NCBI GenBank assembly: GCA_963971425.1
Contig: OZ020523.1
Coordinates: 21,371,105-21,435,104, forward strand
DNA from: Bryoerythrophyllum caledonicum
Lineage: Eukaryota > Streptophyta > Bryopsida > Pottiales > Pottiaceae
Reading direction: 5' to 3'
DNA: 64,000 nucleotides
Shown here: piece by piece, positions 13,161 to 52,980 of the stretch
Numbering within the stretch: the first letter of the stretch is position 1
Layout of the letters: the number at the start of each line of letters is the position of its first letter
Translations under genes and position numbers: made by a program
The notes under the pieces: generated by a model
Told to the model about the DNA's origin: nothing
The model's input: only the letters and a program-made list of their open reading frames with translations
Database searches by the model: none

Positions 13161-13173
13161 GTTTTCTTCACAG
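13161..13173. repeat. Target-site duplication, left copy, of LINE copy 1
   Basis: GTTTTCTTCACAG here and GCTTTTTTCACAC at 26641-26653, 10 of 13 identical. The other two LINE copies also show 13-bp duplications, which supports the reading. Confidence 0.55.
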
Positions 13174-13180
13174 AAGAAGG

Positions 13181-13207
13181 ACGTCGGTTCCCTATGGGGG
13201 GCGGCAT
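13181..13207 (-). other. LINE 3' terminal hairpin, copy 1 (decayed)
   Basis: This occupies the same place, just before the TTC tail, as the hairpins of copies 2 and 3. Eight of the twelve stem positions can still pair, one of them a G-T wobble. See the entries at 46475 and 52681 for the intact forms. Confidence 0.5.
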
Positions 13208-14251
13208 GGATAAAGAGTGTGCTCGTTCCACCACTAAGACCACGCCCACCATACAAGGAATTAGTAGTATGGAACTACTTCCCCCTCTCAAGGTTAGACA
13301 CTATGTAACCGGTAACCGAAACACCCAAAAACCGATCGTAACAAAGGCAAAAGGAGGGGAGGGAGGTAAGAGGAGAAGGGTAGGAAGGAGGGAAAATTTT
13401 AAGGATATAAGGTAGAGGCACCCAATTCCAATCACTTAAGCTAGTTTGGGGCTCAAATGACATGGTATGTCATAAACATTTATGTAGAAAGATGCGGAAT
13501 TAGGAATGAAACTCAACAAATATTTTTTCAAATTTAATCACAAAGATTTGGAATTGATATAGAATTTAAAAGCCCAAAACCCACTGGAGCCCATCATCAA
13601 ACTCTAGAGTAGGTGAGATTTGGTGCCCTCCTTCACCCAATGCCAATAAGTGAGAGTGAGTAAAAGAGAGAAGACATGCCATGAATAACCAACTCATGGA
13701 AGGTATCCAATACCGATCGGCCTTGTTTGACTTTCCAGGCACGGCCACCAATGAGAGCTCAATTGAGGTGGAGAAACCCAAATTGCACGCATCATGACCC
13801 AACGCCGATAATGACTATAGGTATTAGATTTTGAGTTATCGATTTTGGGTCACTTCATGCACCATTTCAAACATTTGTCATTTTCATGCACCATGCCATG
13901 CATACTCTGCTGATCGAAATTGGGTGGCTGATCGGAATTAGGTGCCTCTACCTTAGGTAGTGTAGGAAGTATTTGGTGGGCTAGAGTAAGAAGGTATGTG
14001 GAGTGAGGTAGGTGAGATTTTATGGGGTGTCTTGAATGACTGGGAGGGCTTGGTTGTTTTCAATTTTACGTTTATGTAGTAGTATGGACATAGCATGTTG
14101 AATTGCTATGGTATTGATATTTTTAAGGTATTTTTAATTGGATCAATGGGGGTTTTAAAAGTTTCTACAAGGATTTTCACAGATGGGATGAAGGTAGTTG
14201 CACGAGCGCCAGTTGTGATGACAATAAGGGGGCCCTCTTTCCATCCGAGTG

Positions 14252-14530
14252 CTATGATGTCATTAATAAGGAGTTGGTATTTTTTTGTTTTGTTTTTAAT
14301 TGTTTATGGGAAAATCTGTCATTATAATATGTAAATTCAATGAATTGAATGGTGAGGTCTTGGTTTATGTGGTTGGGTGGGGGATCATTGTATGGTAGGC
14401 CTCCAAGGCAAAGTATGTCCGGTTTGAGTTGGGCATTACAATGACAACGTTGAGTTTTACATGTACATGGGAGTAACCAAGGGGAGATTGTGTTTTCTTG
14501 TGGGTTGTTGTAAAAGGTTCCAACATTCAT
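14252..14530 (-). pseudogene. LINE C-terminal cysteine-rich segment, copy 1
   Basis: This fragment encodes the C-terminal part of the LINE polyprotein. It contains PWLLPCTC...RCHC, matching the same stretch in copy 2 (PWLLPCTCGTQRCHRN) and copy 3 (PWLLPCTCETQRCHCN). The paired Cys residues suggest a metal-binding knuckle, which is inference. In copy 3 a more typical zf-RVT-like C-x2-C...H...C group precedes it. Confidence 0.55.
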
Positions 14531-14979
14531 GAGTATGAAACATCGGGATTTGTTATAGGAGGTGATTAATTTCCAAATTTCCTATATTGCTTTATTATGT
14601 CGTTTGACTATTAGTGAGTGTATGTGGTGGTTTTGGCATTTGAGTAGAACGTGGAGCCATGTGTTTTGGATCTGTGGAAGGGCATATAGTACATGCTATA
14701 GATGGAAATCTTTCTACTCCAAAGAAGAGTTGTTTTCGGGTATTTCCCATGTATTGGCCGGTATAGAATTTGATAAGGCATGTTATTTGTGAGTCGGAAA
14801 TGGTGGGGCTCTTCCAGATGTTTGTAGAGAGTTTGTTATCTATATTATTGTTGCATGTCCATTTTTCTATGTTGGAGAGATTTTCTCATATTAGGTTGAG
14901 GTCATTGTTGAGGTCTTGTTTTTTGAGATATTTGCCCAAGAATCTAACAGGACCTTGTAGGGGTGGCTTCTTTGGAAGA

Positions 14980-15500
14980 TTAATCTTCTTTTTGGAAATA
15001 GTATGGGGTAGCATGGGCATGTTTGTATGGGTGTTCAACATTTTTATGTGATTTTTCTCTACCTTCTTTTGCAAAATTACAGGCTTGTTCGTTTCCTTCT
15101 AAATTGGCATGAGCTCTAACTTTATGAAAGGTTGTAATTTGTGTTTGGTTTTGTAACATTTGAACCATGGACACTAATATGGTTTGGTCAGGGTGACTAT
15201 TATGAATGGTAGGATGTGTTATTTGGGTGTTTAGTAAATAGAGTACATTGATACAATCAATGAATATGTATGGGGGTTTATTGGCGTATTTTGTTATGAT
15301 CATTTGTAGTGTTTTGTGGATGGCCATCATTTCTGCTGTGATGATATTTTGTGGTCTATAGAGTCTTTTGGCTAATTTAATTTCTTTTGAAGGGTTGTAT
15401 ATGCCATATCCAACTTTTTCTCATCGCCAATTTCCAAGGCTAATTTCTCCTCGCTCTTTGAAGGATCCATTGGTGTAGTAGCTATATGTTGGATTGAATT
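14980..15500 (-). pseudogene. LINE RNase H domain, copy 1 (broken)
   Basis: Translation of the minus strand gives a YYTNGSFK-like start, then a KVGYGIYNP..EIKLAKRL segment, AEMMAIHKTLQ, a CINVLYLLNTQITHPT segment and KVRAHANLEGNEQA. This is the RNase H order (first carboxylate region, E of AE, D region, HxxAHxxxxGNE/QxAD). The frame is interrupted near 15340-15420. RNase H after the reverse transcriptase is known from several LINE clades, including I-like and some plant L1 elements. The clade is not assigned here. Confidence 0.65.
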
Positions 15501-17899
15501 TAGGGGGAGTGTATGTTTGATAGTTAGGGAGGGGAGAGGTCTTTCAAGGTAGTTTAATGTATTGTTGATGTATTTTAGTGTTGTCCATTTTTTATTACAA
15601 TTAATTGGGGTTTATATGGGTGTAGGTGGGGCTATTTTTGTGTGTAGTCGATGTATGTTTAAGGTGTCTGCTATGGAGGTCAGTGCGGCAAGTGTTCAAG
15701 AGTGCCAATGGTTTGATGTTGGTGATGGACACATATTATTTGTAATGTAGATGGTTTGAGCCAAGGCTTTTTGAGGTTGGGAGGAATAGTGGGTTCTTTG
15801 TGTGGTACTGAATCTACTTTAAGTAGTGCTATGATATGGGAGTCTGGAAATGGACTTGAGTATTGGTTATAGTTGTGGTATCGGTTGTTGTCCGGTGTGA
15901 TAATGAGAGTAGAGGTGTGGTTTGGATTGTGTTTGGCAGCAAGATGAGTCCAATGTAGTGCCTGTTGTGATTTGTGGGGTGTGCTATACCATTACCAATC
16001 CATTTGTGGTCAAAAGCTTTTCCCAAAGAACCAAATATTTTGGCCCTTTCAAAGAGTGAGTAGAACTTTGTGAGTTTAGTGGAGCATGTGATAGGGGATG
16101 AAAAGTATGAATGTTGGATGTTGAAGGATGCAATTAATGAGTCTACGATGGGTGTGGGTAGTATGTATTGTGCAAATTTGAGGGGGTTGTTTTTTTTTAA
16201 TTTGATATTTATATCTTTGGTATAACCAAATTATTTCAGTTTCAAATTATTGAATGGTTGGTTCAATGTTTGCAGGAGTTTGTAGTGTTATATTGTACTG
16301 TTTCTATAGCCATTGGAGTCTAGTGATAGGAATGGTAAATAAATGTCTACCATTATCTTTGTTAAAATGTGCTTGGTTGTTATTTATTCTAATCGTGTTG
16401 GATGATGTGAGAATGTCATTTTCGGGATTACATTCCATTGCGTAGATTTTTAAGAGAGGGATAATTATGGGTGGTGATATGGATCTCAAGTCTTGGAGTT
16501 GTTCTTGGAGGTGGTGTGTTTGAGTGATCTCCAAGTAGAATCTATTTTGGCTTATTTGATAATAATGTCTTAATTTTTTGGTATTGTAGATAGAAGTGTT
16601 ATGATCATGCCATGGAAAGAGGTTTTTGTTGGAGAAGCCATTTGTTGTAGGTATTGTTGTTTGTTGCCATTGGCATAAATATTTGGAATTGTTCTTTTTT
16701 ATGTTATTAAAGTTGGTGAGTTGTCTATGTTTGTAATCTATAATGTTATTGATGGGATATGAGGTAGGATTTTTAATAATGTGTGTTGGAGGGGAGATTG
16801 GTGTTGTTATTAGGGGTTCGGAGGGAGGTTGGTGTTGTTATTAGCGGTTCAGAGGTGGATTGGTGGAGGAGGATTTCTAGGGAGGTTGTTGGTGTTGATG
16901 GTGATGAATGGGTCTTGAAGTGTGTATGGGTTTGAATGTATGGTACAAGGGGTATTACTTGTGTGGGGCCCTATAGGTGGAAAAATAGTTGTTTGGTAAC
17001 ATATAGGGCACTTTTTATTAATTTAGATGGGATAAAGTGGAAGGTTTTAAAATACTCATTATTAATGATGTGGGTTCCGTTTGGTAAAGTGATTTGTTTT
17101 AAGTGGGATATATTTTTTGAGAGAAGTTTTTGTAGAAGTTTTTGGAAAAGTTGGATATTGAGTGAATTATGGTTTTGTGATTGATGATGCCATATTTTTC
17201 TAGTGGTGTTGGTTTTGAAAGGAAGTCTATGAGTGCGCTTTTTAAGTAAACTTTAGCTATGTGTTTTAATAGAAAAAATGTGCAAGTTATTGGTGATCTT
17301 ATACAATTGGTTGTTTTAAATCTAGGGATATGTTTGGCACCACCGTATTGGGCAAGGACAAAATGAGTTAAACCTTTGTAAATTTTCCCTTGTCTTCCTT
17401 TATAGTTTAGAGCACTTTGAAGTTGTTTGCCCATGCATCAAAGGTACGCAATTTTTAGGAAGAAAGCTTCAAGTCCAAACAGATTATAGGAAGTTAGGTT
17501 ATTGCATTTGATATACATTTTGACATTCCACATATGATTTTTTGTGTAGCTATGATTTTTTTAAGTTTTTAAATATCTGGCATAGAGTATGGTATGGCGT
17601 AGAAGCTGTATGATACGCATGGTTGTATTACCGTATCAACCATTTTTATTTTTTGTTTCATAGTGGCCGGGCATGTTACTCAATATTTGCATTGTTTAAC
17701 GAGTTTTGTTGATGTGGCATGAATTTGGATTTCCATTTTAGTGAGGGGACGAGGTTTGTGCCCAAGTATACGTATGGTTTGTTTTGATGTAGTATAGGGC
17801 TCGGTTGGTTACGGTAGTTGATGTTAGTAGCTTGCATTAGGGCTTTGAATGAGGTTGGGTTCATCTTGGATTATTTGGACATCCAATGGCGGCACATTT

Positions 17900-19372
17900 T
17901 GGGACGCCAACGTCCATGCCGGTCCATTCACAAATTTTATCGATTTTATTAAGTTGTATTTGTAGTGATTTAAGTTTACCAGTCATAGCGGCTAGGTCGT
18001 CGGCGTAGGCGGCTGAATTTATGGTGGCTTGTGATGTACCGAAAGTATAGCCATTATTACCTCTTTGTAACCATTGTAATAATGGTTCTAAGAATATTAT
18101 TAAAAAATATGGTCTAAGAGTATCTTCTTATATGGTTCCTCTTTGAATTAAGATGGGCTGAGTTTTCTCAAAATGTTCACCAATGTATGAGGTTGAAGAT
18201 CGAGAGTATATTTTTTCAACAAGTGCGATTGCATCAGTTGGGTAACCAAGATTGGTCATTATTGCTAGTAGTCGGCCATGGTGGATAGAACCGAAGACAT
18301 TTTTGAAATCTATGTATAGAATGTATATGTCTTGATTTGTGAAGCGTGCATCTTCTAACGCGACTATCATGGTTTGAATTTGTCTAAATGTACTTCTCTC
18401 TGCTCTAAATCCTTCTTGACTATCATGTAGGATTTTGTATATTTCTTCATATGAAGATAGTATTGAGGTTAGTGTGCTTGTATAGAGTTTGTAGATGGTA
18501 CTAGCCAATGCAATTGGTCTATGGTTTGGTAGCATTAAAGGGTCACCTTTTTTGTATAATAAGATTGTTGCACTAATTTTTCAGGAGTCAAGTATTTGTT
18601 TTTGTTTGTAGCAATGAGAGAAAAAGAGGAAAAGGAGCTTATAGAATATGAGGCATGTTTTTGAGAATGGAATTTGGTATTCGGTCTTGCCGTGGAGCTT
18701 TGTTATCCCAAGATTTTGAAGGCATGTGTCGTATGTGGCTTGATTGAAATAGGTGTGTAGTGGGATTTTGGGTTCGCCTCGTTTGTCAAAGGTAAGTCCA
18801 TCCAGGACATGCCATGGATATTGGCGTACCGCACATGTGCATTCTGTTGGGTGTTGCAGGTGGTAGTTACATGTGGGTACGGTGGGTCTATTGATTTTTG
18901 TTTGTTGATTGAATATTTCATTTGCAATGTCTTCTAGGTTAGTTAAGATATTGTTGTATTGGTTTGTGATGCAATCTAGTGGTGGAGATTCATTGTTTTT
19001 GAAGACCCTTCTATTTATTTTCTTGGGGCTAGTTTTGTATAGTTGTTTGTATTTTGAGATGAATTTTCTCATGTTTTCCTTGGCATATTCTGTAGATACC
19101 TTTTGGGCTTGTATGTTGGCATTTTTAGCGATTAGTGCAATGTCCTTTACCCAATTATTGTGTGGTAAATGAAGGGGGGGGGGTGGTGCCGGGATTTGGG
19201 TGTGTTGGAGATTGAAAATTTTATTACAGATAAGAGGATTTTGCCATTGGAGGTTATATTTTTCAATACGAATAGCTTTTTGTATCATATGGTATGTAGC
19301 TAGGTGTTGTTTCCATGTTTTGGAGAATTTGCGAGGTAAATATCCGCCTTGCTCGAATGTCCAATGTGCCAT
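17900..19372 (-). pseudogene. LINE reverse transcriptase domain, copy 1
   Basis: Non-LTR reverse transcriptase. 19372-18581 carries the N-terminal segment. 18535-18128 carries NHRPIALASTIYKLYTSTL, a SQEGFRAERST segment and motif A as YIDFKNVFGSIHHG with its catalytic Asp. After one in-frame TAA at about 18114 the frame continues through LRPYFLIIFLEPLLQWLQRG to motif C, AYADDL, at 17990-18010. The YADD box itself is intact (17996-18007). A frame change separates the first two blocks. LINE reverse transcriptase copies RNA at the nicked target. Here it is inactive because of the stops. Confidence 0.8.
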
Positions 19373-19552
19373 TTGTGGTATAGGTGGGGCTTTGCAAGTT
19401 GTTCAAGTGTATTGGAAATGTTATTGACGAGTAAGTCTAAAGTGTGACATGCTTCGTGCCACTGTGTTTGAGAAAGTTGGTCGTTGTTTTGTAGGGTGTT
19501 GATAAGGGAGTCAATTTGCGTGGAATTTTCTTCAAAAAAATTTATATTAAAA

Positions 19553-20412
19553 TTATTTATGTTTTATTGAGATGGAGTTGAGTATACGTACGTTGTTGTT
19601 ATTTATGGTGATAGGTGTATGGCTAATTAGTGTATTACGAGGAATGTGTAGTTGAATTGGCAAGTGATATGAGTTGGGAAAAATGTCTTTGTTTGTTGTA
19701 GAGGTATACTGTGTGTGGTTAGACGTATGGATATAGAAATCGTCAATTAGACTCCAATCACTATAGTTGTAACTTCCTTGTCTAGAGTATTGGGTATTTG
19801 TATGTATGTATGTAAAGTTTAGGTTGTCCGTGAAGTTACGCCATTGGTAGTCTATTGTTTGAGGGGGTGGTATGGATTCCATTTTGTCGGCCGATTAATG
19901 CTATGTCTCTATTAAAGTCTCCACATAGTATGTACGTGTGGTTGAGATTATTGTTAATATGGGTAGAAATGATGTTTTGGATGTCTATGATGAATCTAGT
20001 GTCTTCGGGGTGAGATGGCATGTAAATATGAAAGATTAACCATGGTTGTAGTGATTGATTAGCAATTTTTATTATTTGAAGGTAGGGGGGTATGTGCATT
20101 GGTGTGGGAATTTTTGCAATGTTTCCTGGAAGTGCGTATGTTTTATGTACTAGTGTGAGGAGGCCACCGCGGCGTGGTGTATGTGGTCTACGTTGTTGGA
20201 TACATTGTGTTAATGCATGTGTGTTGTTAGAAATAAGTTTGTATTTGGGAAATATTTTTTGTATGTATTTTGTGGATTTTGTCGTGGAGATTTTAGTTTC
20301 TTGTATGACTATAATGGCCGGTGGTGAGTTTGTGTGGATAGCGAGGCTTTGTAGGCTAAGAAGGGCAATATTGAGGGATGAAGCATTCCATGTAATTTTA
20401 CTTGTATTATTG
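19553..20412 (-). pseudogene. LINE AP-type endonuclease domain, copy 1
   Basis: EEP-family endonuclease, which nicks target DNA to prime reverse transcription. In sense order the minus strand reads TWNASSLN with LLSLQSL, then IIVIQETKIS (the catalytic QETK box), LLTLVHKTYAL, the CGDFNRDIALIGRQN box (GDFN), DWSLIDDFYI and finally SYHLPIQLHIP. The last motif is normally SDHxPI, so the catalytic Asp has become Tyr. Stops and frameshifts separate the blocks. The position upstream of the reverse transcriptase is the usual APE-LINE order. Confidence 0.75.
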
Positions 20413-20843
20413 TTGTTTGTGTTTAGGTTTTGGTTTTGTGGACGGAGGTAATGGGGTGGAGGGGATGGGTGTATATTTTGGTATAGGATCCAAGCACTTT
20501 AACAATTTGTTAATTAGACTATTTGGAAGGTATGGAAAGTTTTGTTTTATTGTGCCATTTGTTAGGGGGCGGGTCTTGACTATGTTTAAAGTCATATAGC
20601 TTCTTGTGTATTGTTTTTTCGCGGAATATAACATTGTGATTTTCCTCAAGGAATGTTGTATAAGGTTGTGGCGTATTGATGTGTCTTTTTGGTGGGTTGT
20701 AAAGATTGGCTAAGGTATTCAGCAGGGTGTTAGTCCATTGGGTATTGCTTGGGTGTGCGTAGCTAACAAGAAGTTATTATGGCATATAAAATATGTGATG
20801 GTGGGTGCATGTGTTTTTGGCGGATGTATTGAGCAATATGTGA

Positions 20844-21695
20844 TTATGTGATGTTATGGGAGTTGTGTAATGTATGTGTAGCTTTGAATAGAGGTGCAAA
20901 GGCGTCAGCAATGTGTTGGTATTTCGGGTGTAGTTTGATGGTGTTGGGGATAAAATATATTTTAGCTTTTTTCTTATGTATTGTGGGGTGGTGTTTTAGA
21001 ATATTTGGCATGGGTCCGGGGTTAGTTTCAATGTCCCCTCCAAGAAGTAGTAGGATTTTGCGGTGTATGATTTTAATGACGTGTTGTATATTTCTAGATT
21101 TGTTTGTATACACCGGGCGTTTCTTTGTTTTGTCTTTGTTTGTAATTATGGATGTGTGTGTATGATAATTTAATGGTATTTTTGCAACTATGTTTGTGTA
21201 TTTGGTATTTATGATAATCATAATTTTAGTGTTTATTTTGGTTTTAGGAATGTTTTCCGTTATATAGGTATATCGGTTTTTGATGAAGTATGTGTTAGCT
21301 CGTTGTCTGTGTATTGTTGGGTAGTTTAATGAAACATTTGGCATGGGCCTTGGATTTAATTTAATGTCATCATTTAGTATGAGAAGCATGGAACTATCTA
21401 TGTTTTCTTTGGTTATTTTACTCATTTTTTGTTGTTTTTGTTTAACTTTGTGGGTGAAATTGTTGTTTGTGTCTATGAGTTGAGGTGGAGGGATATTAAG
21501 TATAGAGGGTAGGAAGGTGGTGGTGATTATTGATAAAATAGTTTTATAGGTGTGATATGTATGATATGTATGATATGTATGATATGTATGATATGTATGA
21601 TGAGAACATGGAATGGTTTTTTGTTGTGCCTTGGGATAAATAGTGTTTATCTTTATATTTATATTTATGACTTCCGTATCAAGTGGTATAGGCAA
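20844..21695 (-). CDS. LINE ORF2 N-terminal segment with two 2A-like motifs
   Basis: An open 283-codon minus-strand stretch upstream of the endonuclease. It carries LLLLGGDIETNPGP (21012-21035 for D to final P), which fits the DxExNPGP ribosome-skipping signature with its leucine-rich lead-in. About 111 codons upstream is a related degenerate copy, LLILNDDIKLNPRP (21345-21368). Each is followed by MPN and a PTIH(K/R)..A..YFI segment, so the motif sits in a duplicated module. The N-terminal part has (HTY)n from a 9-bp tandem repeat. In 2A peptides the ribosome releases the chain before the last Pro. 2A-like sequences at the N-terminus of APE-type LINE proteins are known from animals and trypanosomes. 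Function here is inferred. The downstream frame is broken. Confidence 0.7.
   Translation of the reverse strand: MPIPLDTEVININIKINTIYPKAQQKTIPCSHHTYHTYHTYHTYHTYHTYKTILSIITTTFLPSILNIPPPQLIDTNNNFTHKVKQKQQKMSKITKENIDSSMLLILNDDIKLNPRPMPNVSLNYPTIHRQRANTYFIKNRYTYITENIPKTKINTKIMIIINTKYTNIVAKIPLNYHTHTSIITNKDKTKKRPVYTNKSRNIQHVIKIIHRKILLLLGGDIETNPGPMPNILKHHPTIHKKKAKIYFIPNTIKLHPKYQHIADAFAPLFKATHTLHNSHNIT
21553..21603. repeat. 9-bp tandem repeat (TGATATGTA)n
   Basis: Five to six units of TGATATGTA on the plus strand. On the LINE sense strand they encode repeated His-Thr-Tyr at the start of the 2A-bearing segment. The 9-bp period preserves the frame. Confidence 0.85.
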
Positions 21696-21779
21696 ATTTT
21701 GTTGTATGGGTTGAGTTGTAGATTTTGTGTTCTTGGTGATATATTTATTATTGTTATTGCATTTTTGACATGTTTTGTG

Positions 21780-22560
21780 TTTTAATTTTTAATTTTTAGG
21801 TATTGTCACATTACAATGAACATTTTTAATGTGTAATTTGGAGTTTTTGTGTTTGTGAGACTTTCTAGTATTTGTTGTATAAATTTGTTGGAGTTGTAGT
21901 GGCGTTGCATTCTAGTGGGTTTTAGGTGTTGGTTGTGTTATTATTTGAATTTTTTTTTGGTTACCTTTTTTTTATTTATTCTCTTTATTGTGTTTTTCGC
22001 TTTTACTTTTATAGTTTTTGGTGTATTTGTATTGATGTATCATGTATTGTTGTTTGGTGTTTGTTGTTTTCAAAGAAGTGTTTGTATTTGTATTTGTATA
22101 TATGTATGTGGATGTGTTAGTACGTGTGTGAATGTATTTGGTTATATATATATAATTGTATTTTTGTTGGTAAAATACATTTCTGTGTATCTATACAAGT
22201 ATATATATTGGTAGTTGTATCAGTATTTGTACATGTATGTGAACAAATATTTATATACAATAGTATGTACTTAGTATTGTATTTGTATTTATTTTTGTTT
22301 TAATACAATATAAATATGGTATCTATATTTTGTCAGAGGTATATCTTATAATATATGCTACTACATATGCTGCCATGTATTCTATCCCATATTGTACTAT
22401 GTATACTATCATGTGTATTATCGGTAATACCATGTATAATACTACAGAGACTACCAAATATTCTACTATGTATTGCCTATTAGTATTGCAATTGCAAAGT
22501 ATGTAGAGTTTAAATAAAATAGGGATTGATATGTGTATAATACCTTTTACCTTGTTGTCT
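21780..22560 (-). other. LINE inter-ORF low-complexity stretch
   Basis: Strongly strand-biased DNA (plus strand rich in T and G). It ends in degenerate repeats of TACTATGTAT and CATGTATTCTA type at about 22330-22490. The plus-strand frames rich in F, V, C and Y are composition artefacts. It probably separates the ORF1-like region from ORF2. Confidence 0.5.
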
Positions 22561-22567
22561 TTAAACT

Positions 22568-24300
22568 TCACATTTTTGACTTTTCATCTTCTAGTCTAGG
22601 GGTAGACATAGCATTGGTGATGGCTTCCAAGGATGCAAGGGCCGCACTCATTGTTTGTTGGATGGTGAGCATTTGGCTCTTCAATTCTTCACTTCTCTTG
22701 TCCACGTATTCTTGTGTCTCTTGTTTTAGTTTCTTGTTGCTTTCCTCCACTGCGGTCTGCACAATTGCCATGATGTCCTTCTTCGTGATGCTCTTTGTTG
22801 ACTCCTCCATCTTCAAAGCCTCCACGGTGTTAACAATGGCCTTGTAAACATTCGCAAATCCAAACTCCTCGATTTGCACCTTGGTAGGCGGATTGATGCC
22901 ATCAGGACTTTTGCAATGTGGTGCAAAGTCTACATAGTGCCCACCCAACTTTATGGTTTTGCCCACAAATTTCCTATAAACTATAGGATTAGCCCAATGG
23001 ACATTGGCACTTCCATTTTGCCAATGTCCATTGTCACGATGTTACCAAATTGAGTTAGCATTTTCCTCCCCCATGACATTATGAAATTCCGCACTAGTCT
23101 CTTCAACATTCATGCAAATATGCAATTGAGATAAGGTTAGGGTTATAGCATCCCTTTTTTCTTTACTCTCGCGGTTGTAGCTGCTTGATGAGGCTCCGAC
23201 ATTGCCTGTTGGTTGCAAAATCTTGTGGTTGGTTGCCACTTGGTGAAGCTTTATCTTTGCCGCTTGTTGAGGAGTCGGTGCAATGATGAAAGCATGAGTC
23301 TCTTCTATACTCTTTTGCGCGCTTGTCACTTCAAACTCAAGCCCACGGTTAAAAACTCTTACAAAGCACATCTACAAAGAGGCTATTGGCTGAAATACCT
23401 TTAAGAGACTCACTTTTGATTTTTGTAGAGATTAGAATTTTTAGTAGTAGCATGGTAACTCTTACATACTTTTCCAATAAAATATTGTTTATCTAGCTTA
23501 AGGATGAAAGGTCTAAGATCTTTGAGAAGCCCAATGCCGTCAATCTCGGGCTTGAGAAGGTGCAATTTAATTGCACCCGCCCAAACCCCTTTTTTCCCCG
23601 CACTCTTCACACTCTTGCAAAGAATAGAAATTACCTCATTGCCTACTTTAATCTCCATGAACTTTAATCTATCAACTACCATAGCCTTGACATCATTGTG
23701 CATGAGCACAAGGTTAGATACCTCAAAGTGGATTGAAACATCAAAATCAAGGGCAAGTCCGGTGGTTTCACTTATCGGGATATTAAATGGTAGTTGAGTT
23801 ATGTTAAATTGTTGGCCAATTACATTCTCTCGTGCGCAAGGGTAGAGGGTTTGAGGAATTCTGGAAAATGCTGATGATGCCAAGAAGATTTATTTGACCT
23901 CCGTCTCTTTGATTCCTCTTGTTACCATGTCGGTTATGGTCTCATCGTTCTGTAGCTGCTCAAGTCCCTCATCTTTGGCCAACTCCTCCATAACTTGGAA
24001 CCCTTGCCAAAATTTGAAGGAAGAAACATCTAGTTCCGTTATGTGCAACATACCTTCCTCATTAAAGCCCTTCTTTTTGATGCCTGAGGAAGTTGCATTA
24101 TCTTGGTTTATTGAGGAGCCACTACTTGGAGGTCTTTTTAGGTTCTCTGAAGGTGCTTCAATCTCCATAGCGTCTCCATATTTGACGTTGCGCTTGATGC
24201 CCCAATGGTCCATTTCTACAAGATCTTCACTTATGTGTGCTTGCCACTTGTTGTTAGATGAGACTTTTATTGTGCGTTTTGAATAGGGAATTAATAGGAG
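22568..24300 (-). pseudogene. Unrecognised decayed ORF (ORF1-like region of LINE copy 1)
   Basis: Reading leftward, a near-continuous frame starts at or above 24300 (...RTIKVSSNNKWQAHIS...). It passes an in-frame TAA near 23890, shifts frame at about 23370-23410, passes a second in-frame TAA near 23040 and ends with TGA at 22568-22570. The combined length is about 560 codons. The start is rich in E, S and K (MEIEAPSENLKRPPSSG). The middle has a folded-domain look (PFNIPISETTGLALDFDVSI, KAMVVDRLKFMEIKVGNE). The end is helical and coiled-coil-like (KKLKQETQEYVDKRSEELKS). I recognise no family. Its base composition is balanced, unlike the A/C-rich ORF2. It could be the LINE ORF1 or a captured or older gene. 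Confidence 0.45.
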
Positions 24301-38208: not shown

Positions 38209-39020
38209 AGGAAACAGAGAGACGAGGAGGTTCCATCCACAACAACAAGACAGACACAAAACAATACTGTAAAAAACAAACAAACAGAGACCATTTTTTT
38301 TTCCTTACTTTTTTTCTTTTGTGGTGTTTCACAGTTGTCCCGGTTCCATTATTTTTTTGCCAGTTTGGTTACTTGAAAGCAAACCACTTACCCACCCTTG
38401 TTGAGCGAGAAAGTGAGCGAGAGAGTGAGAGAGAGAGAGAGAGAGAGGGGGGGGGCCTTATAGTGCATACAATTTCCCCTTCGAGAGTGTATGATAGTCA
38501 CATCAGGAGGCCCATTCTTGATGTTTGATCACCTCCAGTGTTCCCGGTTTACATTTTGGGCCTTTTTGAGTCTTTTTCTCAACTTCCCACGGGCCCTATT
38601 GTTTTTGTAATCATAGAATCAGTTCCTCATTTTTCCATTTCCGAGCTCCTTTTTCTCTTCGGGAAGCATGCTTCTCTCTGGATTAGTACAGCATTTTGCT
38701 CGTTTTTTTCTCATTTATTTCCAAATTTTCATGTTTTTGGCTTCAATTCGCATCTGCTGTTGTTAGTAGTATTTTTTTCTTCTATAAGAACAGAAATATA
38801 AAAATATTCCGTTTTCATCTTTTTATGTTTTATCTTATTCAGTTTCTCACTGCATGCATGCTATCTGGGTAGCCTTATTAAGAATTTGGGTGTTCCTCTC
38901 TTATAATTGTCATATGTTAGAACTCCCCTATGTTCTTGTGGTAGATACAAGGGGTGGACTTGGTAGACGATGGTAAAATTTTGGTAAGTCAAACTAGGCT
39001 GTTGTATAGGGAGCTGATTG
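38209..39020. other. 3' flank of the GATA gene
   Basis: No further gene. It contains T-rich stretches and a GA/G microsatellite at 38423-38456. It probably includes the 3' untranslated region. No unambiguous polyadenylation signal was assigned. Confidence 0.4.
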
Positions 39021-39022
39021 TA

Positions 39023-39600
39023 CAATAGGGTGACATTCAAATTGGCCGTTTAGTAGTTCCAGGGATAGTGTCCTACACTGCTGCCAACTTTGACACCCTC
39101 TCCAAAGCTGAGAAATTGTTATTTTACCATGAAAATTTGGGGACAACATCATCTTTATGTTGAAAACATGCATACCAAATTTCAGGTCCAGGAGACTTAT
39201 ACAAAAAAACTTATGCAAGATCTACCAACATGGGATAGCTGTGAGAAAAGTGTCACAGCTGCCAACTTTGACACCCTCCCAAGAATTGAGGAAATTCTTT
39301 TTGCCCATGAAATTTTTGGAGCAAAAACATTTTTATGTTGTTTGCATGTGTGGAAAATTTCAAGTCCAAAAGACCCATACAAAAAATATATTCCAAATCT
39401 ACCAACATGTGTAGTTTTGAGAAACAAAGGGGAAAACCATTTTACTACTTCCAACTTTGACGCCCTCCTTAGGATTGAATTTTTGTTGATACTTAGTGAA
39501 ATTTTTGGCACAAGATCATCTCTACGCTGGTAACATGTGAGATAAATTTCAAAGCCAAAAGATGTACACAAAAAAGTTATTCCATATCTATCAACATGTG
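39023..39600 (+). repeat. Left terminal inverted repeat of the Tc1-type element
   Basis: Contains three tandem modules of about 178, 189 and 150 or more bp. The inner border is near GTTATTCCATATCTATCAAC at 39571-39590, mirrored at 41226-41250. Confidence 0.8.
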
Positions 39601-40223: not shown

Positions 40224-41234
40224 ATGATGGCAATTTCAGATGAAATTCGTGCTCGCATCATAGGTTTGAGTGAGGGAGGATTTACAGGAGTTCAAATTGC
40301 AGCTACTATTGGAGTTCCTATTAGAACAGTTACAAGGTTAGTAAAAACATTTAGAGAAGATAGAACCTACATGCGCAAACCTTGCGGTGGAAGTCACGCT
40401 AAAAAGCTTAGTGATAGAGATATTCGTAGAATTGTGCATTACTCAAAAATTCATCGTTGCTCTTCACTCTCAAAGATTACCAATGCATGTCCTACTCAAG
40501 TGTGTAGGCGTACTATTCAAAGGGTCTTACATAAAAATAGCATTTTTAGTCGAATTGCAGTCAAAAAACATTTTTTGACACCTCGTCACATGTCTCGACG
40601 ATTAGTTTTTGCTCAGAAGTACCGATGATGGAGTGCAAAAGAGTGGGAGCGTGTTGTTTGGACAGATGAATCTACTTTTGAAATTGGAAAAAATTCTCGG
40701 CAAATTCATGTTTGGAGAAGTACATACGAGCGTTATTCATCAAGTTGTCTAGCTCCTACTTTTAAAAGTGGAAGGACTTCTTTAATGATTTTGGGCGCAT
40801 TTGCCGGAGGACAAAAGTCAGAACTTGTCTTTATGCCTAAAGGTCAACGTTCTGCTAAGGATTTTATAGAAGTGGTTTACGATGCCAAATTGGTTCATTT
40901 CATGGGTCAAATTCCACAAGGAGTGCTTATGGAAGATGGGGCACCCGTCCATAGGAGCAAAATATATGAAGAATGGAGACGAAGCCACCTTCTCGAAAAG
41001 CTCAACTGGCCTGCAAACTCTCTCGATCTCAAACCAATCGAGAACGTTTGGAGGATGTTAAAAGATGTTGTGCAACATGGCAAACAATGCCCTAGAAGCT
41101 TAGATGTGTTGAAGGTAGTTCTTGAAAGAGAGTGGAAGTTAGTCAATGGTACAAAGCTCCTTCAACTATGTCATTCTATGCCCTCTAGGTTACTAGCAGT
41201 GATTGACGCTAATGGAGGACATACACGTTGGTAG
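40224..41234 (+). pseudogene. Tc1-type DD34E transposase with one in-frame stop
   Basis: The frame runs 337 codons including its stop, normal for Tc1 transposases, and is broken by a single TGA at 40626-40628. The N-terminus has a helix-turn-helix (EIRARIIGLSEGGFTGVQIA, PIRTVTRLVKTF) followed by a second DNA-binding region (RKPCGGSHAKKLSDRDIRRI). The catalytic domain shows WTDES (first D), MEDGAPVHRS (second D) and LDLKPIENVW, with exactly 34 residues between the second D and the final E. The stop lies between YR and WSAKEW, before the first catalytic Asp. A CGA-to-TGA change would explain it but was not tested. It would have cut and pasted the element at TA sites. Confidence 0.85.
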
Positions 41235-41799
41235 ATATGGAATAACTTTTTTGTGTACATCTTTTGGCTTTGAAATTTATCTCACATGTTACCAGCGTAG
41301 AGATGATCTTGTGCCAAAAATTTCACTAAGTATCAACAAAAATTCAATCCTAAGGAGGGCGTCAAAGTTGGAAGTAGTAAAATGGTTTTCCCCTTTGTTT
41401 CTCAAAACTACACATGTTGGTAGATTTGGAATATTATTTTTTGTATGGGTCTTTTGGACTTGAAATTTTCCACACATGCAAACAACATAAAAATGTTTTT
41501 GCTCCAAAAATTTCATGGGCAAAAAGAATTTCCTCAATTCTTGGGAGGGTGTCAAAGTTGGCAGCTGTGACACTTTTCTCACAGCTATCCCATGTTGGTA
41601 GATCTTGCATAAGTTTTTTGTATAAGTCTCCTGGACTTGAAATTTGATATGCATGTTTTCAACATAAAGATGATGTTGTCCCCAAATTTTCATGGTAAAA
41701 TAACAATTTCTCAGCTTTGGGGAGGGTATCAAAGTTGGCAGCAGTGTAGGACACTATCCCTGGAACTACTAAATGGCCAATTTGAATGTCACCCTATTG
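41226..41799 (-). repeat. Right terminal inverted repeat of the Tc1-type element
   Basis: Mirror image of 39023-39600 with the same three-module structure and only scattered differences (for example GTTTAGTAG on the left against ATTTAGTAG here). Confidence 0.8.
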
Positions 41800-41886
41800 T
41801 ACATTGGGATGTGGAAAATATCTTAGTGACCCCAAGAACAGAATACTAATTTTCAATCTTCAATTTCCTCTACAATCAGCCCTCTT

Positions 41887-46180: not shown

Positions 46181-46474
46181 TGCCCAGAAGACAAGGATAA
46201 GTGGTTGGTAATTCCTCACAAGATTAATCCCAGGCAGAGAAGGTGTTACGCTTAGAAAGACCTCATCAAAAATGAAGGGTGTTCCTTGTCACGTCGGGTG
46301 CCGCCCTTGCCCTCATTGTTGGGCCCCTCACACACGTGTTATGTTAAAATTAGTGATTAGAGGTAGAAAAAAACAACACACTTATTAGTAAATGAGCAAA
46401 AACTTTTGTTGCATATGTCTGTGGATCATAAAACTTCACACAATTGTAACTGACTTATAATAGCAAGAAGAAGA

Positions 46475-46501
46475 ACTCTGGTCTCCAAAGGAGACCAGAG
46501 T
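46475..46501 (-). other. LINE 3' terminal hairpin, copy 2 (perfect 12-bp stem)
   Basis: The sense strand has ACTCTGGTCTCC, loop TTT, then GGAGACCAGAGT. All twelve pairs form. Compared with copy 3, three stem positions differ: two on both sides as compensatory changes, and one where copy 3 is mismatched. Confidence 0.75.
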
Positions 46502-46922
46502 GAATAAAGTGTCTGTTTGTTCCACCACAAAATCCATGTCAACCGGACATAGGTTTAGTAGTATGGAACTACTCCCTCCTCTTGAGGGCAGACATTATGT
46601 AACCAATAACTAGTAACCAGGAACCAAGGACCAACCATAGCCATAGGGCTCAATTCCAAGAGATGATATGTAAATACTAGGTGTGTGTTTTTTAGAAGTT
46701 TTTAAGGAATATTGTATAATTTTGGGAGAAGTTGGTTATTTTCAAGTTTTCTTTTGTTTAGAAGTATGGACATTGCATGTTGAATAGGGATGGTGTCGAT
46801 CTTTGTAAATGTCTTTTAATTTGGATTAATGGGGATATTGAATGTTTTTTTAAGACTTTTCATAGAGGGGAAAAGGTTGTAGCTTCAGCTCCAGCGGCGA
46901 TGACAGTAAGGGGGTCAATTTT

Positions 46923-47357
46923 TCATCTCAAAGTTGCAACGTCATTAATAAGTGGTTGATATTTATTAGTTTTGTTTTCGATTGCTTCTCGGAACAATCT
47001 ATCATTACAATATTTGAATTCGATAAATTGGATAGTAAGGTTTGTATTTATGTGGTCCGGTGTGGGGTCTTTATATGGTAGTCCTTTGACACATAGTATA
47101 TGTGGTTTAAATCTGCCATTACGATGACATCTTTGAGTTCCACATGTGCATGGAAGTAGCCATGGAGGGACGGTGTCTTCTTGTGGGTTGTTGTTGAAGG
47201 TTCCGGTGTTCATAAGTATAAAGCACCTAGATTTGTTGGGGGAAAGAATTGGTTTTCGGATTCCCCATACCGCTTTGTTGTATCTTTTGACGATTAGAGG
47301 GTGTATTTGATGGTTTTGGCATTTGAGGAGTACGTGTAGCCATGTTTCCGGGTCCAT
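46923..47357 (-). pseudogene. LINE C-terminal zinc-finger region, copy 2
   Basis: An open minus frame: DPETWLHVLLKCQNHQIHPL, then PWLLPCTCGTQRCHRN and a C-terminal helical part. The WLHVLLKC segment resembles the zf-RVT domain found after RNase H or RT in plant LINEs. The upstream CxxC is expected just before this frame, as seen in copy 3 (CPIC). Confidence 0.55.
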
Positions 47358-47661
47358 GGAGGTGCATATTCGGCATGTTATTGATAGAAATTGTTCAATT
47401 CCGAAGAAGAGTTGTTTGCGGGCATTTCCTATGTATTGTCTAGTACAAAATTTGATAAGGCATATTTTTTGTGAGTATGTAATTGTGGGATTTTTCCAAA
47501 AGTTTATAGACAGTTTGTTATCAATGTTATTGTTACCGGTCCATTTGTCTATATGAGAGAAACTATTGGAGATTAAATCCAGCTTGTTAATTAAATCATG
47601 TTTTGAGATATTTGTCTTTAAATCTAATGGGACCTTTGTCCAAGGTGTCTTTCATAGAAGG

Positions 47662-48285
47662 TCAACTAATTCTTTGAAAGTAGTATGGGATAGCGTAGGC
47701 ATGTTCATGCGGGTGTTTGGCATTTCTATGAGATTTACCTAGTCCTTCCTTAGCTAATTTATCCGCTTGTTGGTTTCCTTCTATATTTACATGTGCTCTA
47801 ACTTTATGGAGGGTTGTAATTTGTGTGCGATCATGTAGCATTTGAATCATAGATTTTAGTATGGCTTGGTCAGGGTGGCTATTGTGTAGGGTAGGGTGTG
47901 TTATTTGTGTGTTTAATAGATACAAGATGTTTATACGATCTGTATAGATGTCTATAGGTTCATTAACACATTTTGTAGTGATAATTTGGAGAGTTTTATA
48001 GAAGGCCGTCTTCTCTGCTCTGAGGATATTTTGAGGCCCATGTAGTCTTTTGGAAATTTTTATTCTTTTGGTCAAATTATATATACCATATCCGGCTTTT
48101 TTACTATGCTTATGCCCGGGACTGGCTTCTATAGGTTCTTTGAAGGAACCATCTATATAGTAACTATATGCGAGGAATTTTTTTAAAGGAATATGGTTAC
48201 AATATGTGGAAAGGGGGGGTGTGGTGAGGTGGGTTTGTGTTATGTTGGCATATCTAAGTTGGGACCATTTCTTGTTGCGATTCAC
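47662..48285 (-). pseudogene. LINE RNase H domain, copy 2
   Basis: A 207-codon open segment. SYYIDGSFKEP carries the first catalytic Asp, KAGYGIYN follows, LRAEKTAF provides the Glu, INILYLLNTQITHPT is in the DxxY/L region (Asp at DRINIL), and KVRAHVNIEGNQQADKLAKEG carries the H..AH..x4-GN..AD signature with the last Asp. Of the three LINE copies this one keeps the most RNase H residues. It lacks an upstream reverse transcriptase because the element is truncated. Confidence 0.75.
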
Positions 48286-49101
48286 TAGGGTTTGGAAAGG
48301 TGTCGGTAGAGCTATTTTAATATATTGTCAGCTTATGTTGTGGTTATTTGTTATGGAGGTAAGTGTGGCAAATTGTTACATGGTACCAATATTATTATTT
48401 TGGTGATGTATGCATAGTATTTGTATGGTAGATGGCTCAAATATAGGTTTATTTAATAATTTGGGTGGTAAAGTGGATTTTTCATATGGTACCAAGTCTG
48501 CCTCAAATAGAGCAATGATGTAAGAATCTAGGAATGGGCTTGAGTGTGGGTTAAAGTTTTGGTACCAGTTATTGCCTGGTCTCATAATAAGATAGGAGTA
48601 GAGTTTGGATCATTTTTTATTGCAAGTCTTGCCCAATGTATTGCCTGTAGGAGTGGGCAGTACCATTTCCAATCCATTTGTAGTAGAAGGCGTTTCCTAG
48701 TGAGCCAAAAAAATTGTCTCTTTTGAAAGTGAATAAAACTTTGTGAGTTGGATGGAGTATGTGACAGACAATGAAAAGTACAAGTGTTGGATGTTGACGG
48801 ATGAGATTAGTGACTCTACAATGGACGTGGATAATGTGTATTGTGCAAGTTTGAGGGGGTCATTTCTTAAGATGCGGTATTTATATCTTTGGTATAGCCA
48901 AACTATTTCAATATTGAATGATTGAGTTATTGGCTCTATGTTTGTGGGAGTTTGTAATTTCTTATGATATTGGTTCCATAGCCATTGGAGTCAAGTAACA
49001 CAAATTACAGTGATTAGATGCCCCTTGTTGTTTTTGTATAAATGTGCGTGTTCTTCATTAATTTTAGTTGTATTGTTTGATGTGACAAACTCATAAAAGC
49101 A

Positions 49102-49915: not shown

Positions 49916-51070
49916 TCCTTTAACGACAAGACCTATAACCTGATGACTATAAAACAATGCTTTGTCATCCTTAATTCTTTAAGGCCGATGATCCTTTTTA
50001 GCCTATGAGAACCCACAAGTGTTCTAAATCATGCAAAATGACATCTGCACATTGCATACATCTCAAGCACAAAAAATCTACAAACCCACTTCATGGGAAT
50101 CGTTGTACCCTGCTAATCCTTGCACCAATTTTTGTGGCAATGGTTTCAATAGATGCATATCTTCCTCCACCCATGTGTCCTTGTTTCAATTTTTCATGGA
50201 GGTGGCCTATAGCATTTGATATTGAGATTATCGTGCCAAAACAATCCAAAAATGGTCTTTAAGCCTTAACCCCTGAAGCACTGGGCCTTGTGCTTCACCA
50301 ATACCACCCCAAAATTGCCACTTTTTGTACCATAAATACCATATGAATTGATAGGTATATGCATTTGAAGAGTCCAAAATTGTATATTTCTACTATGTCT
50401 CGATAAGGCCATAGTACTATGACTCAAGATAATGGCATATTATTCCATTACACATTGCACAAAATTGATGGATCTATGTTATACCTTGTGTTAGGTCATT
50501 GCACACCAAAAACCACAAGTAATGGAGGTGTCTCCGTCAAGAAAAATAGACCTGCATTGACTAGGGGTATAGTAAGTGGCTTTTTACTTGGAAAAAATAA
50601 AATAAAATAGAGAAATTTTTGGTTCTAAAATCCAAACATCGAATAGAATTATTATCACTTAATCTAAAAATAGAAAAAATAAAATTTCTAAAATCGTAAA
50701 ATCCTTAATTTCTATGCATTTTAAAGTGAAAATAATGAAGATTGCTAAGAACTTTCCTTCACTACTACATGTCCTTAAAAAGTGCAATTGTCAACAACAA
50801 CCAGACAAACCCCCATGAACCGAAGCAAAAAATGGTCAAAGCTAAAATACATCAATAATACAATAGACTACCTTGAAATGCCTCCACCCCTCCCAAACTA
50901 CCAAACTCCAACTTCATCAAAATTTGACCCGGCATACAGCTACTATACCAATGGCTCCTTCAAACCACTTGAACAAGTTAGCCCGGGAAACTAGCGCAAA
51001 GAAAAAGCCGGATATGGCATATACAACCCTATCAAAGAAATTAAACTAGCCAAAAGACTTCATGGGCTAC

Positions 51071-51140
51071 AAAACATCCTTAGAGCAGAACTCATGGCCA
51101 TACACAAAACATCCTTAGAGCAGAACTCATGGCCATACAC
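51071..51140. repeat. 35-bp tandem duplication in LINE copy 3
   Basis: Two identical units, 51071-51105 and 51106-51140, each starting AAAACATCCTTAGAGCAGAA. As 35 is not a multiple of three, the duplication shifts the RNase H frame. It is absent from copies 1 and 2. Confidence 0.9.
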
Positions 51141-51926
51141 AAAACACTACAAATCATTACAATAAAATACAGCAATGAACCCGCACACATATTTACTAAC
51201 TGTATCAATGCACTTTATCTACTAAACAACCAGATAACACACCCTACCCTCCACAATAGCCACCCCGACCAAACTATATTAATGTCAATGGTCCAAATGT
51301 TACAAAACCGAACACAAATGACAACCCTCCACAAAGTTAGAGCCCATGCCAATATCGATGGAAACGAACAAGCCGATTAACTAGCAAACGAAGGCCGAGA
51401 AAAATCACAAAAAAATGCCAAGGACCCATACGAACATGCCCATGCTACACCATACTACTTCCAAAAAAAAGACTGGCCCTCCAAAGAAGATATCCCCGAC
51501 AAAGGCCCGATTAGATTCTTAAACAAATATCTCAAGAAACAAGACCTCTATAACAACCTCGACACAATCGCTTAAAACTTCCCCAACATAGAAAAATGGA
51601 CCAGCAACAACAAAATAGACAATGAACTCTCCACAAATTTCTGGAAGAATTCCATCATCACTAACTTACAAATAACATGCCTCATCAAATTCCGCACGGG
51701 TCAATATATGGGAAACGTCTGAAAACAACTTTTCTTTGGAATAGAAAGATTCCCATCTATAACATGCCCCATATGCACCTCCACGGACCCCGACACATGG
51801 CTACATGTCTTACTTAAATGTCATAACCACCACATACACTCCCTAATTGTCAAAAGACACAACAAAGCCATATGGAAAATCCGTAAACTAATCACCTCCC
51901 ATAACAAATCGAGATGTTTTATTCTC

Positions 51927-52439
51927 ATGAATGCCGGCACCTTTAATAACAACCCACAAGAAAACACGGTTCCACCATGGCTACTCCCATGTACATGCGA
52001 AACTCAACGATGCCACTGCAATGCTCAACTCAAACCAGATATACTCTGCGTTAGAGGACTACCATACAAAGACCCCCTACCAGACCATATAAACCAAGAC
52101 TACATTAGTCAATTCATCGAATTTACATACTATAATGACAGATTCTCCCCAGAAAAAATTGAAAACAAAATCAATAAATACCAACCCCTTATTGATGACA
52201 TCATTGCCCTCGGATGGAAAGTGGACCCCCTTATTGTAATCACAGCCGGCGCCCGTGCCACCACCTTTATCCCATCCATAAAAATCCTAGAAGATACCTT
52301 CAAAATCCCTATTGATACTATTACAAACACTTTCAAGAATATTAACATCATTGCCATACAACATGCTATGTCAATCCTTCTACATAAACGCAAAATTGAA
52401 AACAACCAAGCCCTTCCTGATACACAAGACCTCCCATAA
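51927..52439 (+). pseudogene. LINE C-terminal region, copy 3
   Basis: A 170-codon open stretch beginning within the LINE polyprotein after the zf-RVT-like segment. It has the CTCETQRCHCN cysteine cluster (about residues 19-29) and then a helical C-terminus ending at the TAA before the 3' untranslated region. It shows where the LINE ORF2 normally ends: about 280 bp before the tail. Confidence 0.6.
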
Positions 52440-52680
52440 AATTACCCCTTACCTCATTTCTAAGAAACCTTGACACCCCGAAACACACCCTCCTCCCCTC
52501 TCCCTCCCCCCTCTCTTCCCCCCCTCCCTCCTTCCTTGCTACTCTTATGATTGGTTGGTTTTATGGTTTGTGGTTACTTGTTACATAGTGTCTACCCTCG
52601 AAAGGGGGAAGTAGTTCCAACTTATTAATTCCTTGTCCGTGGGCATGGTCATAGTAGTGGAACAAACAAACACTTTATTC

Positions 52681-52707
52681 ACGCCGGCCTCCTCCGGAGA
52701 CCGGCGT
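52681..52707 (+). other. LINE 3' terminal hairpin, copy 3
   Basis: ACGCCGGCCTCC, loop TCC, then GGAGACCGGCGT. Eleven of twelve pairs form (one C-A mismatch). It is followed directly by TCTTCTTCTTC. It occupies the same position as the hairpins at 46475 and 13181. Confidence 0.75.
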
Positions 52708-52980
52708 TCTTCTTCTTCTGCAATTGTCAACTCTACAATAGCACTATTCATCTCTATAGTACCTTGTCCAGCTGCGAAAAGAGTCAAGCTTTTTATGCTT
52801 GAAGCATTATAACATTTTCCCTGTAAGTCCAAAAAAAGAAAGGAAAGATTCCCTGCAAAGATAACCCGTATTCCTATTTGTTGTAAAAATTTCAAGAAGT
52901 TATCTTCAGAAATGGATTTTTAGGAACCTAGCCAGAATTGATTTGTACTCCGTAGGAACAAATTGTCCTTTAGGGGTTAA

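Follow-up and report, generated by a model that had tools for sequence, protein, structure and literature searches.

A conserved 2A-like motif ahead of ORF2 in a LINE family of Bryoerythrophyllum caledonicum

The octapeptide DIETNPGP, encoded ahead of the enzyme domains of a LINE in a 64,000-nucleotide stretch of Bryoerythrophyllum caledonicum DNA (assembly GCA_963971425.1, contig OZ020523.1, positions 21,371,105 to 21,435,104 of the forward strand; hereafter the window), is neither a chance occurrence nor private to this copy, and it is under strong amino-acid constraint. Judged from sequence comparison, it is probably the working StopGo/2A of a living LINE family, with the copy in the window as one of its dead members.

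The octapeptide was assigned to window positions 21012–21035 (minus strand, reverse complement read) on the basis of translation, genome-wide counts and constraint in other copies. The fit to DxExNPGP that the initial annotation had claimed for this segment was confirmed in the minus-strand ORF2 frame, and DIETNPGP also agrees with the StopGo core (D/G/C/N)(V/I)ExNPGP. Its in-frame flanks read HRKILLLLGG before and MPNILKHHPTIHKKKAKIYFIPNTIK after. The hydrophobic lead-in, which had likewise been noted at the outset, is L-rich (...KILLLLGG, codons −11 to −1, 21036–21068, minus strand, by in-frame translation), and with its terminal LLLLGG the motif fits the StopGo consensus. Further upstream, at 21282–21368 (minus strand), a second, degenerate 2A module (LLILNDDIKLNPRPMPNVSLNYPTIHRQRANTYFI; in frame with the first and 70% identical) was found, which reads DDIKLNPRP and was absent from the initial annotation. 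Leader, relic module, 2A and the first ORF2 residues are contained in one open frame of 314 aa (20847–21788, minus strand), which closes 63 codons past the start of the motif.

The remaining parts of the element, all on the minus strand, were located by Pfam searches and by alignment to other copies. ORF2 holds an apurinic-type endonuclease piece at 19839–20498 (Exo_endo_phos, 8.9e-05, 22.8 bits, slightly below the gathering threshold of 24.5) and reverse transcriptase pieces at 17864–18580 (RVT_1, 2.7e-11 and 6.3e-05); the description as an APE-type LINE in a plant genome is supported. These pieces are followed by a PCIF1-like domain at approximately 15870–16290 (placed via alignment to copy L025, with Pfam support from L025 and L012) and by RNase H at 14983–15420 (RNase_H, 7.7e-07). 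The motif had been placed just upstream of the endonuclease; upstream is correct, but the endonuclease begins about 225 residues past the motif. A broken ORF1 was recovered at 22583–24024 by tblastn with the ORF1 of L019 and L016, and the 3′ end at 13172–14203 by blastn with the 3′ region of the young copy L116; some 600 additional bases break up this 3′ end between 13317 and 14019. The LINE thus extends from about 13172 to 24024 or slightly beyond, and comprises an ORF1 relic, leader, 2A, ORF2 (to about 14020) and 3′ region. Its ORF2 aligned to that of L025 in 14 pieces with 37 stops; the window copy is an old, dead relic of the family.

Two further pieces of the same LINE, both without the 5′ part, lie in the window at 46465–49092 (minus strand) and 50806–52719 (plus strand), the last 450 residues of the latter showing about 86% identity to L025. 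The window also holds a GATA zinc-finger gene, a DUF7806 gene (DUF7806 being presumably plant-specific) and a DNA transposon with inverted repeats of about 582 nt at 39019–39599 and 41223–41803, between which a DDE_3 transposase piece was detected (40629–41231, plus strand; Pfam 7.3e-13). The repeats are 98.5% identical, and the DDE_3 element is therefore probably young.

For abundance, the 437-Mb genome (894 contigs) was searched with the DNA pattern GAYNNNGARNNNAAYCCNGGNCCN for DxExNPGP, which gave 884 + 846 = 1730 exact matches, against 3 + 1 = 4 for the reversed-pattern control. Because sampling by the motif is circular, two other handles were used, namely the endonuclease and the downstream peptide YFIPNTIK. 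In the endonuclease search, 150 of 3438 candidates were scored, and 60 of these places were chosen by hand, non-randomly (mostly high-ranked, with few from identical groups). Exact D.E.NPGP was present in 50 of the 60; the other ten consist of seven with at least one motif substitution (L056, L057, L060, L062, L063, L077 and L091), one without alignment (L053) and two unaligned across the motif (L064 and L084). On contig C1, the exact motif was found at 8 of 8 endonuclease places and, among the matches listed (up to 33.785 Mb), at the right distance in 74 of 94 YFIPNTIK places, with 20 places lacking it; conversely, YFIPNTIK was present at 74 of 100 motif places among the matches listed. Genome-wide, the peptide gave 787 + 769 matches and its reversed control 0. 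The window's own old family was reached by DNA similarity; of 40 matches, 28 copies were fetched, of which 12 keep exact DIETNPGP, and six of the 28 carried Gly to Arg at NPGP, a change that would be expected if a methylated CpG in CCCGG decays.

In the same assembly, full rbcL genes of different sequence were present on contigs C894 (together with a 312-aa accD) and C821, with a third rbcL match on C590. Plastid DNA from two or more plants, or else divergent versions of it, seems to be present. Among the solved rubiscos listed, the C894 rbcL obtained its highest score against entry 9chz.

The architecture of the element was read from other copies. L025 has one open frame of 3087 codons, 739 before the motif and 2348 from the motif onward, in keeping with an ORF2 length of about 2350 codons. 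Counted from the motif, Pfam placed Exo_endo_phos at residues 225–408 (24.7 bits; gathering 24.5), RVT_1 at 844–1105 (4.4e-26, over gathering), PCIF1_WW at 1591–1729 (45.2 bits against a gathering threshold of 31.1) and RNase_H at 1861–2002, and L012 showed the same four domains (Exo_endo_phos 27.1 bits, RVT_1 over gathering). By eye, the 3087-codon frame was counted at 32 of the 150 scored endonuclease places and a 2809-codon frame at 13; the motif was present in all five copies checked of the former (C1:3622656, C1:7115873, C1:8812389, L092 and L110) and in all three checked of the latter (C1:11019722, L094 and L095). Three 3087-type copies were 99.96–100% identical over 2.6 kb of 5′ sequence, with a common start about 2587 nt before the motif, and in one of the three looked at, on C12, a clean target-site duplication of 10 bp was read (CATTACAACT at both flanks). 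The sense-strand 3′ tail of this young lineage is (TTC)n. As these young copies are near-identical and motif-bearing, the LINE family has multiplied recently, and with the motif. Endonuclease and reverse transcriptase in ORF2, a target-site duplication and a simple 3′ tail are together those of an APE-type non-LTR element. In a comparison limited to solved structures, the reverse transcriptase matched R2 at 1.3e-30 and L1 ORF2p at 1.3e-19.

The PCIF1-like domain sits between reverse transcriptase and RNase H in both L025 and L012. The PCIF1 family is that of the mRNA cap-adenosine methyltransferase. The best PDB match of the LINE domain was PCIF1 itself, at a weak E of 0.062; in the second aligned PCIF1 chain, ANPPF stands opposite AHPH in the LINE, which makes catalysis by this domain doubtful. 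Among the papers listed by a literature search, no report of a PCIF1-like domain in a LINE stood out.

Selection was measured on 57 aligned copies representing 41 unique haplotypes, L053, L064 and L084 being left out. Over the motif dN/dS was 0.050 (bootstrap 0.026–0.086), and over the downstream codons 8–29 it was 0.093. Upstream, it amounted to 0.416 in the lead-in (codons −11 to −1), 0.49 at codons −20 to −12 and 1.04 at codons −40 to −21, where cross-lineage alignment is poor and the near-1 value is no proof of neutrality. Fourteen copies selected by the motif had earlier given the same picture. Among four closely related copies (L012, L021, L023 and L024), the alignable leader gave 0.66, the downstream part 0.42, and lead-in plus motif, with three synonymous and no non-synonymous differences, 0; once L022 and L025 were included, the values were 0.58 for the leader, 0.08 for lead-in plus motif and 0.28 downstream, the last figure being inflated by L022, which is frameshifted there, and all six copies having been fetched by motif. 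Among the 41 haplotypes, position −1 is G in 40, position −2 is G in 23, S in 16 and C in 2, positions −7 to −3 are mostly L or I, and Met follows NPGP directly (codon +8) in 40. The initial annotation had named loss or neutral drift of the motif in other copies as evidence against itself; the motif is kept in both samples (50/60 and 74/94) and, at a dN/dS of 0.05, does not drift neutrally.

Constraint alone does not prove skipping, and the downstream residues are about as constrained as the motif (0.093 against 0.050), which would suit a segment that is translated and conserved for an ordinary structural or targeting role within ORF2p, resembling a 2A by convergence and without skipping. All fixed residues of the StopGo octapeptide are nevertheless present, the lead-in is of a known type and the sequence just upstream varies freely between lineages, so that convergence of this kind was considered rather unlikely.

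Working skipping would further depend on translation of what precedes the motif. For five lineages, the leader stretch was delimited from the ORF1 stop, or from the 5′ limit of the open frame, to the motif, and its stops were counted in the 2A frame and the other two frames and compared with 500 mononucleotide shuffles per lineage. The counts were 0/34/40 in the 3087 lineage (739 codons; shuffles mean 35.3, minimum 20), 0/48/54 in the 3121 lineage (766 codons; mean 39.6, minimum 23), 0/21/13 in the 2809 lineage (419 codons; mean 19.7, minimum 9), 0/44/82 in L012 (1044 codons; mean 54.5, minimum 34) and 0/12/7 in L016 (395 codons; mean 7.8, minimum 1, so that L016 alone is weak). In the 3087 and L012 lineages the bounds of the stretch were set by the open frame, so that zero stops are given by construction and the evidence is the run length; nor are the five leaders entirely independent, those of L012 and the 3087 lineage being 67–78% identical in parts. 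Openness through composition alone was ruled out by the other two frames and the shuffles, within the limits set by the weak L016 and the two self-delimited stretches, and taken together the five lineages make translation of the leader probable. The leader sequence is repetitive (Q, N, T, H and K runs), differs between lineages and is weakly constrained or unalignable. Long tandem CAA/AAC-type triplet runs, giving poly-Q or poly-N by frame, were seen in the leaders of L010, L015, L016, L018 and L026.

A conserved AUG opening the leader was not found, and in 9 of 23 motif-bearing loci the stretch from the last in-frame stop to the motif contains no Met, although decay affects many of these loci. 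This lack of a conserved upstream AUG, together with the codon +8 Met shared by 40 of 41 haplotypes, would also agree with an ORF2p whose translation begins at that Met, immediately behind NPGP, the NPGP segment being unused for skipping. An untranslated stretch should show neither openness nor constraint, whereas the leader is open in the 2A frame with the others closed, and coding constraint in the ORF2 frame covers codons −11 to +7 (motif dN/dS 0.05); a start at this Met was held to be improbable. A chance motif in a decaying repeat, for which the dead window copy and the 12 of 28 exact motifs in its old family might be cited, is ruled out by the reversed-pattern control (1730 matches against 4) and the two motif-agnostic samples (74/94 and 50/60), and retains hardly any probability.

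Older 2A modules inside the leaders have mostly, but not always, decayed. The relics read DIKLNPRP in the window, DVKLNPRP in L002, DMETNPRP in L012, L021 and L023, DKETNPRP in L024, DINTRP in L025 and DIGTIPGP in L027, and the leader of the 3121 lineage contains an in-frame relic, DIENNLGP, followed by a truncated endonuclease. These modules have lost the octapeptide, which the ORF2-adjacent 2A retains. As a general rule, that upstream relics always lose NPGP is contradicted by the L078 lineage, in which the upstream module keeps DIETNPGP with RR where GG is usual, and by two exact motifs 510 nt apart on contig C1 (6319950 and 6320460), a spacing as in the L012-type pair. No older 2A module was seen in the added upstream stretches of L072 and L101.

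In several families the leader is preceded by an ORF1 of 430–490 aa, for which no Pfam match was obtained with the copy tested (L016). ORF1 sequence was detected in L002, L007, L010, L011, L013, L015, L016, L018, L019, L020, L026 and the window, as well as in the 2809 and 3121 lineages; none was recovered from the joined 5′ regions of L012 and L025, nor from the 5′ region of another 3087-type copy. Relative to the 2A/ORF2 frame, ORF1 stands in a −1 relation with an overlap of 22–124 nt in L010, L016, L018 and the 2809 and 3121 lineages, and in the same relation with a 38-nt gap in L015. Exceptions are L011, with ORF1 in another frame, and L013 and L019, in which ORF1 and 2A lie in one frame with a stop between them; in the window, L009, L014 and L028, ORF1 is decayed with large gaps to the 2A frame, and L026 gave no result here. 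In L026, ORF1 and 2A share a single frame, which had suggested one ORF1-2A-ORF2 polyprotein as the general plan. This plan is contradicted by the ORF1 end ...D(T/M)SN* common to five copies of the microsatellite-rich families (L010, L011, L015, L016 and L018), and given this shared end L026 looks like a deletion fusion.

Animal 2A LINE elements have a short N-terminus before the 2A, and in a 2014 review by Luke the 2A is said to be tied to loss of ORF1. By contrast, the leader here is hundreds of codons long and ORF1 is retained in several lineages. The single-ORF plan of animal-type 2A LINEs, with ORF1 absent, was not matched, ORF1 being present in many loci.

With the motif read as a working 2A, ribosomes would reach it by translating the long open leader, a step that has in silico support from the five lineages in which, of the three frames, the 2A frame alone is open. 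Entry into the leader might be by frameshift from ORF1, by re-initiation or by a non-AUG start. The upstream chain would be released at NPG/P, after which ORF2p would be made, beginning Pro-Met-Pro-Asn. In this way the 2A would free ORF2p, with its endonuclease, reverse transcriptase, PCIF1-like domain and RNase H, from anything translated upstream, and a constant, clean N-terminus of ORF2p would leave the 5′ part of the element free to change. The 5′ parts do vary, with ORF1 present or not found, microsatellite tracts and stacked older 5′ modules. Counted against skipping were the lack of a conserved leader AUG, the near-invariant Met after NPGP, which also fits an ORF2 start, the L078 relic that keeps its octapeptide, the pair of exact motifs 510 nt apart on C1, and the places without the exact motif (10/60 and 20/94).

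A more elaborate scheme, which we put forward only tentatively, would have two recoding steps in a row: ORF1 would be left for the overlapping ORF2 frame by a −1 frameshift (or by coupled re-initiation), and the leader, indifferent in sequence, would be read and then dropped at the 2A. The 2A might then serve as an insulator, across which 5′ modules, even entire older 5′ ends that bring a 2A of their own, could be swapped or stacked, the enzyme remaining untouched. For this scheme, the in-frame relic 2A with truncated endonuclease in the 3121 lineage and the −1 overlaps of ORF1 were adduced.

Among known systems, non-LTR retrotransposons of trypanosomes and of a variety of further species carry 2A-like sequences, as described in the accessible part of PMC4981915, with which the statement in the initial annotation on trypanosome and animal LINEs agrees. 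The APE-type examples named in the accessible parts of PMC4981915 and PMC12846837 are L1Tc of Trypanosoma cruzi (Heras 2006) and LINEs of sea urchin and other animals (Odon 2013). As far as these sources go, a 2A-like motif in frame with LINE proteins is common to those elements and the present ones, which differ in their land-plant host and additional PCIF1-like domain.

Of the StopGo classes in the accessible part of PMC12846837, the L-rich upstream motifs 2 and 6 have (A/S/C)G as their last two residues, followed by D, and motif 6 was among four classes tested, all of them active, from ~92.7% (motif 3) to almost 100% (motifs 1 and 4). To the extent that the classes are laid out there, the LINE motif shares with viral classes 2/6 the (D)(I)ExNPGP core, an L-rich hexapeptide ending xG, and D at p12; it differs in occurring in a plant retrotransposon, in having T, not S, as the commonest residue at p15, and in having G as the commonest residue before the p11 G. 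The upstream context of the LINE thus agrees with the class 2/6 pattern, with the caveat that G, the commonest residue at −2, lies outside A/S/C. In the accessible text of the same source (2026), no evidence was found that plant viruses naturally employ StopGo, which is also described as rare among cellular genes. According to the available part of PMC4981915, plant cells support the activity of a 2A-like sequence from sea urchin.

For land-plant LINEs, L1 with an (A)n tail and RTE with a (GTT)n tail are the only groups given in the accessible part of PMC9033089. The elements described here have in common with these, as they are characterised there, an endonuclease and reverse transcriptase and often RNase H, but they differ in the (TTC)n tail (young 3087-type lineage only), in a reverse transcriptase nearer to R2 than to L1 ORF2p among solved structures, and in an ORF2 of about 2350 codons. 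No report of a 2A in a plant LINE was found in a literature search of partial coverage, judged by title and start of abstract. For a 2A LINE, the retained ORF1 and the long leader look new, and so, provisionally, does the plant host.

The combination of a constrained 2A, a loosely constrained leader and mostly decayed duplicates points to protection of ORF2p from upstream sequence, beyond a damping of expression. With about 1700 exact motif matches, some of them in very young elements, the genome would offer 2A sequences adapted to plants in large natural supply, and the family makes the role of a 2A for a LINE a testable question.
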